Positions 35,774 through 44,901 of a stretch of 64,000 nt of DNA are shown here, piece by piece. Position numbers and translations under genes: made by a program. The DNA is from Dactylosporangium aurantiacum (lineage in GTDB: Bacteria > Actinomycetota > Actinomycetes > Mycobacteriales > Micromonosporaceae): contig NZ_JNYJ01000065.1 of the NCBI RefSeq assembly GCF_000716715.1, positions 1 to 64,000 on the forward strand. Direction: 5' to 3'. The notes below the pieces were generated by a model, which was given only the letters and a program-made list of their open reading frames with translations, did no database searches and had not been told where the DNA came from. Every line of letters starts with the position of its first letter. Within the stretch, counting starts at the first letter, position 1.

Positions 35774-37570
35774 TCACCGCGGGCTGGCGGCCTCTTCCTG
35801 CTCGTCGACCTGCTCGTCGACCGCGACCGGCGCCCAGGTGAACTGCAGCTCGATCGGCGGCAGCGGCGGCAGCGGCGGCAGCGCGACCGGCCCGGGCCCG
35901 TCGTCGTCGAGGTCGGCGGGCGGGAGCGGCCGGTCGAGCTCGGACTCGGCCAGGGCCGTCTTGTCGGCCTGCTCTGGGGCTGGCTCGGTGGCGTCCGTCC
36001 GCGCGACGGTTGTCGCCGCCTCGTCCGGCTGGGGTTCCGGGGTTGCGGTGTCCGCTTCCGTGCCGGCAGCACTTCCCGCGACCGGGCTCTCGTCGATCAC
36101 CGCGGCCGCCTCTTCGGTCCCTTCTGTCTCTTCAGCCGCTTCGGCCGCTTCGGCCGCTTCCGTCGCTTCGGCCACTTCCGTCGCTTCGGCTGCTTCCGCT
36201 GCTTCGGTTGGCTCGGTTGCCTCGGTTGCCTCGGTTGCCTCGGTTGCCTCGGTTGCCTCGGTCACGACGACGCTGACCGTGGTGGCCCGGCCGTCGCTCC
36301 CGTCGGTCTGGTTGGCCACCGCGACCGTGACCGCCGCGTCGCGGTCCTTCGGCACGACCGGGTTGAGCAGCGCCGCGATCGGGTCCGACAGGGTCGACAG
36401 GTTGCGGCGCAGCCCGGCCCGCGGGCCGCCCTTGGTCGGCTGGGACGGCAGCGTCGGCAGCACCAGCCGCTCCCCGGCCCGCCGCGGCGGCCAGGCGAGG
36501 ACCAGCAGCGCCAGCAGGAACACCGCCGTGCCGAGCATGAGCAGCCCACCGGCCGTCGGCCCGAGCCACGCCGGCGCGAGCCGGGCCGTGACCGCCGCGT
36601 CGATGCCGGCGGAGCCGTCCGCGTTCATCACCACGAGCGCCAGGTGCCGCCCCCGCAGCGCCGACGGCGACCAGGTCAGCCGCGCCGCGCCGGCGACCGT
36701 GACGCTCTTCGCCGACCAGAACGCCTGCGCCGCCGGCCCCGCACCCCCCGCCGCCGGACCCGCGGCATTCGGGCCGGCGGCGGTGTTCGAGCCCGCCGGG
36801 TCCGAACCGGCAGGCTCCGAGCCGCCCGGAGTCGACGCGCCCGGATCGGCGGCGGCCGCGCCAGGGTCGCTCGTGCTCGGGCCGGTCGCGCCGGGATCGG
36901 CGCCGGTCGCGTTCGGGTCGCCGGCGGCCGCGTTCCCGTCCGAGCCGGCCGCGCCGGAGCCGGCCGTGTTCGGGTCACCGGCGGCCGCGTTCGCGCCGGA
37001 GCCGGTCGTGTTCGGGTCACCGGCGGCCGTCCCCTGCCCGCCCGTGGTGGCACCGGACCCGCCGGTCGACGCGTTCGGGTCGGCCGCCGCGCCGGGGTCG
37101 CCCGCGCCCGGGTCGGCGGGGACGACGCCGGGGTTGCCCTGCCGGCCGGCCGCCCCACCGGCGGAGGCCGCCGCGGCGCGGGTCTCGACCTCGGTCAGTT
37201 CGACGGGCAGCGGACCGCGGGCCAGCCGCACCCGCGACACCTGGGCCTGGACCTGCCCGCCGAGGTACCGCCGCACCGCCGCGTCCGGCGCCAGCCCGAC
37301 GAACAGGGGGCCGCCGGAGCCGACCGCCGACAGGCTGAGCGTCGTCTGCCCACCCCGCGCGAACGGCGCGTCGGCTCGCAGCAGCGCGTCGATGTCCGGC
37401 ACCACCACCGCGCGCCCGCTGGAACGCAGCCGCTCCAGCCGCGCCGTGAACGTGTCGTCAGCGGCACGGTGCTCCATGGCCACCCTGAGTCCGCCACCGG
37501 CAAGCGCCAGCGGCACCGCGATGAGCAGCAGCAGCGCGCCGACACCTGCCCGAACCAGACGCACGACCAT
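35774..37570 (-). CDS. membrane-anchored protein with repeat-rich linkers
   Basis: The protein has 598 aa from ATG 37570. An N-terminal membrane helix precedes a ~90-residue extracellular domain (VVVPDIDALLRADAPFARGGQT, GPLFVGLAP, VRRYLGG) of a type widespread in actinobacteria. A ~150-residue Gly/Ala/Pro/Asn linker with AGDPNT-like repeats follows, then a second predicted domain and a second membrane helix (GGLLMLGTAVFLLALLVLAW). The cytoplasmic tail contains TEA/EA tripeptide repeats and a Pro-rich end. Function is unknown. Confidence 0.72.
   Translation of the reverse strand: MVVRLVRAGVGALLLLIAVPLALAGGGLRVAMEHRAADDTFTARLERLRSSGRAVVVPDIDALLRADAPFARGGQTTLSLSAVGSGGPLFVGLAPDAAVRRYLGGQVQAQVSRVRLARGPLPVELTEVETRAAAASAGGAAGRQGNPGVVPADPGAGDPGAAADPNASTGGSGATTGGQGTAAGDPNTTGSGANAAAGDPNTAGSGAAGSDGNAAAGDPNATGADPGATGPSTSDPGAAAADPGASTPGGSEPAGSDPAGSNTAAGPNAAGPAAGGAGPAAQAFWSAKSVTVAGAARLTWSPSALRGRHLALVVMNADGSAGIDAAVTARLAPAWLGPTAGGLLMLGTAVFLLALLVLAWPPRRAGERLVLPTLPSQPTKGGPRAGLRRNLSTLSDPIAALLNPVVPKDRDAAVTVAVANQTDGSDGRATTVSVVVTEATEATEATEATEATEPTEAAEAAEATEVAEATEAAEAAEAAEETEGTEEAAAVIDESPVAGSAAGTEADTATPEPQPDEAATTVARTDATEPAPEQADKTALAESELDRPLPPADLDDDGPGPVALPPLPPLPPIELQFTWAPVAVDEQVDEQEEAASPR
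36215..36259. repeat. five perfect 9-bp repeats coding TEA
   Basis: GGTTGCCTC occurs five times in tandem (36215-36259). It is the most regular part of a degenerate 9-bp repeat tract (about 36130-36259) inside the coding region on the minus strand. The unit is a multiple of three, so copy-number change would keep the frame. Confidence 0.9.
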
Positions 37571-43648: not shown

Positions 43649-43721
43649 GGGGCCGTAGCCCAATGGCAGAGGCACACGGTTTAGGTCCGTGCCAGTGTGA
43701 GTTCGACTCTCACCGGCCCCA
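43649..43721 (+). tRNA. tRNA-like gene, anticodon TAG, short variable loop
   Basis: The 73-nt cloverleaf has perfect stems: acceptor GGGGCCG/CGGCCCC, anticodon CACGG/CCGTG and T GTGAG/CTCAC. The loop TTTAGGT has anticodon TAG (leucine CUA codon), and discriminator A follows. The variable loop has only 5 bases, whereas genuine bacterial tRNA-Leu is class II with a long variable arm. The body resembles tRNA-Gly (7462-7532), with the anticodon loop of tRNA-Leu(TAG). It is either an atypical tRNA or a tRNA mimic, 53 bp upstream of the gene at 43774. Confidence 0.8.
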
Positions 43722-43773
43722 CTGTTTTCTCGGATGATTTCCGGCGCATCCGGCTCGTACACTCGGGCACATC

Positions 43774-44505
43774 ATGACGAAGCTGAATCAGATCATCGCG
43801 GTGGAGAAGGGCGTCAAGTCGCGCTCCTTCCAGGAGCTCACCGACGCGCACCACGTGCTGCAGAAGCCCGCCCTGCTGGCCGGCATCGCGCGCACCTACC
43901 GTCCGAAGGACGAGGAAGGCGAGCAGCTGCCGCCCGAGTCGACCCGCGTACAGGTGAAGGCCGACGAGGTCCTGCGGCAGACCGCCACCATCCTGACCCG
44001 GCTCTTCGACGTCACGGCGACGAAGGACTGGACCAACTGCGTCGCGCGCGCCGACGTCCTCGTCGACGGCACGCCGCTGCTGCGTGACGTGCCGGTGTCC
44101 TATCTGCTGTTCCTGGAGAAGCAGCTGGTCGACCTGCTGACGTTCGTGCGGAAGCTGCCGGTGCTGGACGCGGCCGAGTCGTGGGTGTACGACGCCTCCG
44201 CCGACTGCTACGCGACCGAGCCGACGCAGACCACCCGCACCAAGCGGATCCCGCGCAACCACGTGAAGGCCGAGGCGACCGAGAAGCACCCGGCGCAGGT
44301 CGAGGTGTATTACGAGGACGTCGTCATCGGCTACTGGAAGACGGTGAAGTTCTCCGGCGCGCTGCCCGCGCAGCGGATCAACGAGCTGGTGGAGCGGGTC
44401 GAGAAGCTGCAGGCCGCGGTGAAGTTCGCCCGCGAGGAGGCCAACTCGGCGGAGGTCGTGCAGCAGGAGGCCGGCGAGAAAGTGTTTCGCTTCCTCTTCG
44501 GCTGA
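43774..44505 (+). CDS. conserved protein of unknown function flanked by tRNA-like RNAs
   Basis: The 243-aa protein is soluble, with no signal peptide or membrane segment. I recall it as a conserved actinobacterial family (possibly DUF7873, not verified). Conserved-looking parts are QIIAVEKGVKSRSFQELTDAHH, ADVLVDGTPLLRDVPVSYLLFLEKQL, KLPVLDAAESWVYD and the C-terminal helix RVEKLQAAVKFAREEANSAEV. It is rich in basic and acidic residues, compatible with RNA binding. A tRNA-like gene lies just upstream and two permuted tRNA-like RNAs directly downstream. TACACT lies 10 bases before ATG 43774. Confidence 0.85.
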   Translation: MTKLNQIIAVEKGVKSRSFQELTDAHHVLQKPALLAGIARTYRPKDEEGEQLPPESTRVQVKADEVLRQTATILTRLFDVTATKDWTNCVARADVLVDGTPLLRDVPVSYLLFLEKQLVDLLTFVRKLPVLDAAESWVYDASADCYATEPTQTTRTKRIPRNHVKAEATEKHPAQVEVYYEDVVIGYWKTVKFSGALPAQRINELVERVEKLQAAVKFAREEANSAEVVQQEAGEKVFRFLFG

Positions 44506-44509
44506 CGGC

Positions 44510-44515
44510 TAGGAT
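44510..44515 (+). promoter_or_regulatory. -10 box for the permuted tRNA-like transcript
   Basis: TAGGAT starts 5 bp after the stop codon of the upstream gene, which puts the transcription start near 44522, just before the outer helix of the first permuted RNA (from 44535). Confidence 0.5.
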
Positions 44516-44521
44516 CGGCGG

Positions 44522-44690
44522 TGCGCAAGGAGCGCAGACTGAACCTGAGGCTCAGTTTGACAGGTGCGCGCGGTGTCAATGTGGAGGTTCGATTCCTTCC
44601 GCCGTCACTCGTGACGGCGTAGCCCAATGGCAGAGGCGGCCGCGGGAGCCGAAACACAAACTCAACTTCTCGCTCCAGTCTGAGCATTCG
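44522..44690 (+). ncRNA. permuted tRNA-like RNA 1
   Basis: The tRNA halves are in swapped order. The 3' half comes first: anticodon-stem strand GCGGT 44570-44574, T-arm GGAGG-TTCGATT-CCTTC 44583-44599, acceptor CGCCGTC 44600-44606. A 6-base loop follows. Then the 5' half: acceptor GACGGCG 44613-44619, TA, D-arm GCCCAATGGCAGAGGC 44622-44637, stem strand GCCGC 44639-44643. Acceptor strands pair 7/7; GCCGC pairs with GCGGT. Flanks pair further: 44554-44559 with 44657-44662 and 44535-44541 with 44676-44682 (7 bp). The variable segment is long (8 bases) and no CCA is encoded. Confidence 0.75.
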
Positions 44691-44697
44691 CCGTTCA

Positions 44698-44835
44698 ACA
44701 CCGGATCGACCGCTCACAGACCTTGTCGTCGAGGTTACGGGTTCAACTCCCGTTCGGGCCTCCAACGCGGCCCGATAGCTCAATCGCAGAGCGCGACGCC
44801 TTCAACCTGATCTGTGACCTTAAACGTGCCGGTGT
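44698..44835 (+). ncRNA. permuted tRNA-like RNA 2
   Basis: The order is again 3' half then 5' half. CGTCG 44727-44731, variable AGGTT, T-arm ACGGG-TTCAACT-CCCGT 44737-44753, acceptor TCGGGCC 44754-44760 and an encoded TCCA come first, then ACGC. Acceptor GGCCCGA 44769-44775, TA, D-arm GCTC-AATCGCA-GAGC 44778-44792 and CGACG 44794-44798 follow. The acceptor pairs 7/7, CGACG with CGTCG 5/5. Outside lie TCACAGA 44714-44720 with TCTGTGA 44811-44817, and ACACCGG 44698-44704 with CCGGTGT 44829-44835, both perfect. The D-loop lacks the usual GG. Confidence 0.8.
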
Positions 44836-44858
44836 GTGCAAATGGGCGGCACACCGAG

Positions 44859-44883
44859 GCCCGGGGATGGGCATTCCCCGGGC
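44859..44883 (+). terminator. terminator hairpin after the permuted RNAs
   Basis: A perfect 9-bp stem GCCCGGGGA/TCCCCGGGC (44859-44867 with 44875-44883) with a 7-base loop is followed by TTC. It closes the transcript that begins near 44522. Confidence 0.65.
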
Positions 44884-44901
44884 TTCACCAATTGCGCCGC
44901 A

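Follow-up and report, generated by a model that had tools for sequence, protein, structure and literature searches.

In the permuted tRNA genes of algae and archaea, the 3' part of the tRNA comes first and the 5' part second, and a short linker joins the two at the acceptor end. Permuted (two-piece) tmRNA has a tRNA-like domain in which the 3' part comes first. Judged from sequence, the closest known kind of RNA to the one described here is the YrlA-type bacterial Y RNA. In a review, YrlA is described as having a tRNA-like domain that contains dihydrouridine and pseudouridine and is a substrate of tRNA-modifying enzymes, as binding Rsr on its basal stem, and as being part of a PNPase particle (PMC8394870). 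Competition of YrlA with an anticodon nuclease has also been suggested, though YrlA is not the substrate of that nuclease (PMC7790460). As for phages, a survey of jumbo phages links the provision of tRNAs, RNA repair and TROVE proteins with the conflict between phage and host (PMC7824862), and Ro60-type proteins or Y RNAs in phages are discussed in two further papers (PMC7765460, PMC12282133).

In this study, we analyzed a stretch of 64,000 nucleotides from Dactylosporangium aurantiacum (contig NZ_JNYJ01000065.1; hereafter the window), whose genome is 11.4 Mb in 227 contigs. A sequence-only reading of this DNA had proposed that two tRNA-like RNAs, both circularly permuted, stand here in tandem and have a topology comparable to that of YrlA, of which its author knew no description. 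We found none either: a full-text search returned no paper that combines permuted tRNA with bacteria and actinobacteria, the core bacterial Y RNA papers being outside its reach, and among the Y RNA and tRNA-mimic papers listed no title or abstract opening describes a two-headed RNA linked to DUF7873. The name DUF7873 itself was not found in any paper in the full-text search.

Organization of the locus

All features of the locus lie on the plus strand and are given in window coordinates. The DUF7873 gene, whose product is proposed as the partner of the RNA, occupies 43774..44505 and encodes 243 amino acids (Pfam PF25283, E 1.1e-118). The RNA element, 44522-44890, begins 16 nt past its stop codon. 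A -10-like TAGGAT at 44510..44515, picked by eye from the sequence, is a possible promoter of the RNA; elements resembling TATACT, TACACT or TAAACT were seen by eye at the matching place in three other loci (L057, L054 and L062). The element starts with a small hairpin, TGCGC-AAGGA-GCGCA (44522..44536, sequence reading), which could not be seen in some of the relatives.

Unit 1 (44536..44688) is composed of stalk 1 and a permuted tRNA-like head 1, as defined by pair counts in an alignment of 34 loci (A4). Head 1 (44583..44638), found by our parser, comprises a T-stem (44583-44587/44595-44599) with its T-loop (44588-44594), the acceptor 3' strand CGCCGTC (44600-44606), a 6-nt linker ACTCGT (44607-44612), the acceptor 5' strand GACGGCG (44613-44619), which makes 7/7 pairs, and a D-arm (44622-44638). 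Unit 2 (44689..44850), composed of stalk 2 and head 2, was defined by a second 34-locus alignment (A3), by R1, a covariance model of unit 2 built from 34 training rows with the window among them, and by a match to YrlA. Head 2 (44737..44794; parser and acceptor covariation) has the corresponding parts: T-stem 44737-44741/44749-44753, T-loop 44742-44748, acceptor 3' strand TCGGGCC (44754-44760), an 8-nt linker TCCAACGC that opens with TCCA (44761-44768), acceptor 5' strand GGCCCGA (44769-44775), again with 7/7 pairs, and D-arm 44778-44794. The order in both heads is thus T-arm, acceptor 3' strand, short linker, acceptor 5' strand and D-arm. The linkers of 6 and 8 nt agree with the 6-8 bases first noted, and the re-formed tRNA stems, the fully paired acceptors and the helices drawn outside the anticodon-like stems were all found again. 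R1 gave unit 2 of the window, one of its training rows, 147.5 bits over its full length, and head 1 31.6 bits at model positions 48-104.

The element closes with a hairpin, GAGGCCCGGGGA-TGGGCAT-TCCCCGGGCTTC, of 12 bp (44856-44886) followed by ACCA, together 44856..44890, as delimited by a hairpin scan of 120 loci. Position 44890, where the second RNA had been thought to end, is therefore the end of the whole element and not of unit 2, since it closes this third part.

Two tRNA calls in the window deserve mention. Just upstream of DUF7873, at 43649-43722, is a tRNA of 74 nt with the anticodon TAG, which was called as tRNA-Leu in spite of its class I length. In other Dactylosporangium loci, in L020 and in the Gordonia phages Phendrix and Keelan, a short tRNA-Leu(TAG) is likewise found no more than 1.5 kb from DUF7873. 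A general tie between DUF7873 and this tRNA was considered and dropped; the two are adjacent in Dactylosporangium and near each other in a few other loci. A 102-nt tRNA-Ala(GGC) called by ARAGORN on the minus strand (36799-36900) has no Rfam support and is probably a false positive.

Recurrence downstream of DUF7873

We collected 135 DUF7873 loci from the genomes of relatives, IMG/VR, seven phages, a genome contig collection and a phylum sample; the window's locus is present three times in this set, which also has a few near-duplicates. In 130 of the loci the parser found one or more permuted units in the 700 nt that follow DUF7873, and in 99 of the 130 it found two. As controls, the parser was run on 2700 dinucleotide-shuffled sequences, where it found 12 units, and on the 135 upstream regions, where it found 2. 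The permuted tRNA-like pair in the window, seen by direct reading and by the parser, is hence confirmed as real. No parser unit was found within 700 nt downstream in five loci (L021, L051, L055, L059 and L061); the DUF7873 gene of L021 aligns over residues 39-176 only.

Two properties of the parser bear on these counts. It requires acceptor complementarity, which makes the acceptor helix in part a product of the selection, and it also selects for T and D pairing. It can also mistake two adjacent ordinary tRNAs for one permuted unit, as was seen in L137, and the first unit of L045 is probably such a pair. In several loci, including L082, L086 and L100, ARAGORN called tRNAs of 86-91 nt (Phe, Leu or Ser) on the head-1 region, about 20-35 nt past DUF7873. 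These calls are probably false, and spurious tRNAs may stand at this place in genome annotation.

Fold, covariation and conserved residues

The rows of A3 and A4, 34 each, were drawn from 38 loci hand-picked for diversity out of the 135, and loci with linkers of at most 16 nt were kept. On A3, 97.4% of the cells of unit 2 (head 2 and stalk 2) were paired, compared with 36-46% when the structure was slid along the alignment. Two-sided changes occurred in 30 of its 35 consensus pairs and in 239 cells, against 66 cells in shuffles, and 0/500 shuffles matched any of five measures. All 7 pairs of the head 2 acceptor helix had two-sided changes across the 34 loci. Because the parser chose for acceptor, T and D pairing, the stalk helices are the fairer test; the four helices of stalk 2, which it did not select, had two-sided changes in 17 of 19 consensus pairs. 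On A4, 94.6% of the cells of unit 1 were paired and 14 of 27 tested pairs had two-sided changes, again with 0/500 shuffles as good; the D-stem was invariant. The helices of stalk 1 were 85.7% and 89.7% paired, with two-sided changes in 4 of 11 pairs. Covariation thus gives strong support to the fold of head 1, head 2 and stalk 2 and moderate support to that of stalk 1. The conservation and covariation of stems that the sequence-only reading had asked for in homologous loci are both present.

Most residues of the tRNA elbow are conserved in both heads, named here by tRNA numbering. U54, C56 and G19 occur in 34/34 rows of both alignments and U8 is invariant in both heads. U55 is found in 31 of 34 rows of one alignment and 34 of 34 of the other, A58 in 32 and 34 of 34, respectively, and G18 is invariant in head 1 and present in 22/34 rows in head 2.

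For the following counts, as for those of the 3' hairpin, open reading frames and motifs, six duplicate loci were omitted (L001, L134, L049, L102, L025 and L039). The anticodon-like stems are weaker than the remaining stems: at least 5 bp could be formed in 72% of head 1 (n=94) and 78% of head 2 (n=123), and in 34% and 30% when partners were swapped. Both stems run into the conserved stalks at the place where a tRNA has its anticodon loop, and consequently no decoding tRNA can form. It is therefore extremely improbable that the units are functional permuted tRNA genes or decayed tRNAs. Four stems can indeed be drawn and the D-arm and T-arm are tRNA-like; however, the anticodon loop is absent, and conservation and covariation extend over several phyla. 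ARAGORN and the Rfam tRNA model made no tRNA call at the window's RNA locus. Decay confined to a single strain does not apply either, since relatives, IMG/VR records, genome contigs and a second genus carry the RNA.

The linkers between the acceptor strands range from 4 to 48 nt across loci. They open with N-C in 74/94 of head 1 and 120/123 of head 2, and with NCCA in 33/94 and 41/123, and the acceptor 5' strand that follows opens with G in 89/94 and 76/123. These features would suit a processing model, in which RNase P and RNase Z cut both linkers to leave an assembly of three pieces with two free CCA-type ends, which may even be charged. However, about two thirds of the linkers have no CCA, and linkers reach 48 nt, with some seeming to hold internal hairpins, so that we consider such processing quite improbable. 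The earlier proposal was right about the permuted units and probably not about their being two separate RNAs. We infer that a single transcript spans 44522-44890; units 1 and 2 probably belong to one two-headed RNA in which either head has a conserved signature that is its own.

The strands of stalk 1 (44536-44562 and 44658-44685) have a six-base period, ARNYUN, in which the third triplet position is on average the most variable. An open reading frame there, suggested by the resemblance of AARYUNARNYUN to codons for a K/R-L repeat, was rejected. With five further loci of the window's genus omitted from the count, an in-frame start within 12 codons was present in 63/114 loci only; the frame ends after 5 to 171 codons across loci and is broken by insertions of 1-2 nt in several A4 rows.

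The 3' hairpin

In a scan that left out loci whose last unit was head 1, a hairpin of at least 8 bp stood at the 3' end in 107/120 loci, mostly with 12-13 bp and a 7-nt loop. The loop, 44868-44874 in the window, contains GGNYA in 100/120 loci, both bacterial and viral, whereas shuffled loops do so in 10%. A T-run follows the hairpin in 11 loci, for example L024 and L033, and NCCA occurs among the first few bases past it in 39/107. Since the hairpin is present in most loci and T-runs in some, it is probably a terminator with a conserved loop. Neither this hairpin nor the linkage to DUF7873 described below had been part of the first description of the locus.

The DUF7873 protein and its distribution

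The AlphaFold2 model of DUF7873 is a confident one, with a pLDDT of 92.8 and a pTM of 0.78. Neither this model, nor Pfam, nor comparisons with known folds and families gave a clear known fold or function. A basic, highly conserved stretch at about residues 153-176 of the window's protein, in the beta region, seen in alignment A1, is a candidate RNA-binding site.

The family is large and patchy. In the protein search 7369 of 7999 scored proteins matched DUF7873, and at least 493 confirmed relatives were present in the genome contig collection. It was found in 4 plasmid records and in 73 phage records, including phages of Vibrio, Gordonia, Rhizobium, Klebsiella, Serratia and Arthrobacter and cyanophages; ten of the 73 were examined. 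That it occurs in 7 of the 396 genomes of the phylum sample, the window's genome counted, marks it as patchy.

Among the neighbour clusters listed, one was recognized as common to distant loci: an ADP-ribosylglycohydrolase lies near DUF7873 in six loci and was confirmed by Pfam in the three that were scanned, L055 and L059 (Herpetosiphon) and L052 (Actinosynnema). In GC-rich DNA, shadow ORFs dominated the clustering of neighbouring ORFs, and further true common neighbours may be missed. In both Herpetosiphon loci a Macro-domain gene also precedes DUF7873 by about 4 kb.

Co-occurrence of the RNA with DUF7873

The RNA and the DUF7873 gene occur together in genomes. Among 61 relatives, the window's genome counted, a full-length R1 match of at least 42 bits was present in 20 of 21 genomes with DUF7873 and in 0 of 40 without it, where the best matches were 33.0 bits full length and 46.6 bits partial. 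The DUF7873-carrying relative with no such match (G005) has a DUF7873 that aligns over residues 39-176 only. In a second genus of 121 genomes, R1 gave at least 60 bits in 57 of 58 genomes with DUF7873 and in 0 of 63 without it; the 58th had a partial match of 45.9 bits beside the gene, and the best full-length score in genomes without DUF7873 was 40.1 bits among the matches listed. This genus is probably Streptomyces because its locus L133 has two heads identical to those of L116 (S. fructofermentans). The cut-offs of 42 and 60 bits were set after the lists had been seen. Five A3 rows come from the 61 relatives (L009, L011-L013 and L019; four besides the window) and several Streptomyces rows were also among the training rows, so the tests are not blind, and the genomes without DUF7873 serve as the control. 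Weak copies can be missed, because the genome searches were run with strict filters and the top 24 or 48 candidates of each genome were scored.

A weaker R1 match, with an E-value of 1e-5 or better, is kept in 54 of the 63 second-genus genomes without DUF7873. These matches reach at most 48.8 bits partial and 40.1 bits full length, and perhaps represent a further conserved YrlA-like RNA.

The pair also extends beyond these genera, being kept together in several bacterial phyla and many phages. In two Herpetosiphon genomes and one Chloroflexota MAG the RNA is present in the same genome as DUF7873 and unlinked to it, with full-length scores of 113-124 bits, and in all three another match, covering the head alone, is located 42-48 nt away from the full one. 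Kibdelosporangium (L051) has an intact-looking DUF7873 and only weak RNA copies, of 28 and 43 bits with R1. Phages of hosts outside the Actinobacteria gave low R1 scores together with a parser unit: Pam2 36.0 and 26.4 bits, KpLz-2_45 28.4, RHph_Y1_11 35.4 and RHph_Y65 27.4 bits. Vibrio phage D505 has a parser unit with no R1 match, and in the DUF7873-carrying Microcoleus phage My-WqHQDG the surroundings of the gene gave no parser unit and no R1 match. The pair is surrounded by tRNA genes in three phage loci (L042, L043 and L044).

The position of the RNA, on the same strand and directly downstream of DUF7873 in most loci, and its hairpin end would fit a cis element of this gene, namely a 3' UTR or an attenuator that senses tRNA-related proteins. 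However, the distance varies, from 16 nt in the window to about 400 nt in L008 and about 0.4-0.5 kb in L065, and the unlinked yet present RNA of the Chloroflexota argues for a trans partner. A cis role therefore seems very unlikely. Joint presence with no need of linkage is what is expected of a protein and its RNA partner, though it is not proof of binding.

Relation to Y RNAs and Ro60

The Rfam YrlA model (RF02553) aligns with head 2 over its full length (44713-44821) with 36.1 bits (E 3e-6; cut-off 69), which is in line with the YrlA-like topology proposed at the outset; head 1 gave 18.1 bits. YrlA matches of 28.9-40.5 bits were obtained in 15 of 18 relative loci. As a control, the Y RNAs adjoining TROVE (Ro60) genes in four relatives scored 34.9-44.5 bits. 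Because these also miss the cut-off, the YrlA score neither includes nor excludes the DUF7873-linked RNA. Beside one of the TROVE genes (L136), positions 2219-2327 matched the nematode sRNA family ceN72-3_ceN74-2 with 37.7 bits (cut-off 38), overlapping the YrlA-like RNA region.

It could be argued from these scores, which are about equal, and from the full-length match of head 2 that the RNA is an ordinary YrlA-type Y RNA pair serving a Ro60 (Rsr) protein encoded elsewhere, with DUF7873 as an accessory. TROVE is in fact commoner in relatives with DUF7873 (14/21) than in those without it (5/40); shared ancestry weighs in this enrichment, since 7 of the 14 belong to the window's own genus. However, TROVE was not found in the other 7 of the 21, and in the 14 it never adjoins the DUF7873-RNA locus. 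Of the 16 virus records that have the pair, 2 have TROVE; in the other 14, among which are all seven named phages, it was not found. The presence of the RNA in the relatives, as scored with R1, follows DUF7873 and not TROVE: a full-length match is present in the seven DUF7873-carrying relatives lacking TROVE, and 0 of 5 relatives with TROVE and no DUF7873 reach 42 bits. The stalk sequences also differ in motifs that were picked by eye after looking and may serve as proxies at most: CCGAYTTG occurs in 4/6 TROVE loci and 0/124 DUF7873-linked RNAs, and CTTAAAYG in 54/124 DUF7873-linked RNAs and 0/6 TROVE loci. CCCGGTGCGYAG, taken by eye as a sequence proxy for the Ro60-binding stem, was found in 0/124 DUF7873-linked RNAs; the ACTTGAT proxy is present in one TROVE-linked RNA only (L138) and so is uninformative. 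On balance, service to a distant Ro60 appears rather unlikely.

Discussion

We consider it probable that the locus produces one RNA of about 370 nt with two tRNA-mimic heads, which forms an RNP with the DUF7873 protein encoded upstream. Such an RNA would have two long stalks, with a permuted tRNA mimic consisting of elbow and acceptor at the tip of each, and a hairpin end. DUF7873 may bind the stalks at their conserved internal loops and thereby hold an RNP in which the two mimics are displayed. By analogy with YrlA, the heads may dock to, or compete for, proteins that grip the elbow and acceptor of tRNA; candidate targets include modification enzymes, RNase P, the CCA-adding enzyme and nucleases. 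Since the heads have no anticodon loop, binders of the elbow or acceptor seem likelier targets than an anticodon nuclease, with a role as nuclease decoy being possible. The particle might then act in tRNA or RNA metabolism in a manner comparable to Ro60-Y RNA particles, with no Ro60. Phages that carry this pair, several of them within tRNA arrays, probably use it to control the integrity of tRNA or RNA in the course of infection.

A bolder proposal is a three-part machine, in which two mimics and perhaps an acceptor-like 3' hairpin, with linkers cut by tRNA-processing enzymes, are used by DUF7873 and shared by bacteria and phages as a two-gene module. We think this distinctly unlikely; if true, a tRNA-shaped machine could capture or shield tRNA enzymes in stress and phage infection.

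That the RNA and the protein have been kept together across phyla points to an uncharacterised RNA-protein machine. The two-headed RNA-DUF7873 RNP that we favor would add an abundant RNA-protein pair, present in several phyla and in phages, to the few tRNA-mimic RNAs such as tmRNA and YrlA. DUF7873, a family of thousands of proteins with no function assigned, gains a specific candidate RNA partner. The results suggest in addition that tRNA mimics of the Y RNA type can do without Ro60, and phages that have the pair and lack Ro60 make a role in infection directly testable.

The comparison with known systems can be drawn as follows. The DUF7873-linked RNA has the same 3'-part-first order and short acceptor linker as permuted tRNA genes but lacks the anticodon loop, hence yields no decoding tRNA. 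It shares with permuted tmRNA a tRNA-like domain in which the 3' part comes first; the Rfam cyano_tmRNA model matches head 1 weakly (19.4 bits, cut-off 70) and aligns in the T-arm and acceptor part only, whereas the DUF7873-linked RNA has a proper D-stem. Like YrlA with Rsr/Ro60, it carries a permuted module of T-arm, acceptor and D-arm on a stalk. It differs from YrlA in having two heads side by side, stalk sequences of its own, with the by-eye TROVE-stalk motif in 0/124, scores below the Rfam cut-off, and linkage to and co-occurrence with DUF7873. The RNA may thus resemble the tRNA-like module of Y RNA in its working, but we would not class it among the Ro60 Y RNAs. The architecture is that of the known bacterial Y RNAs; what sets this RNA apart is its two heads and its link to DUF7873.
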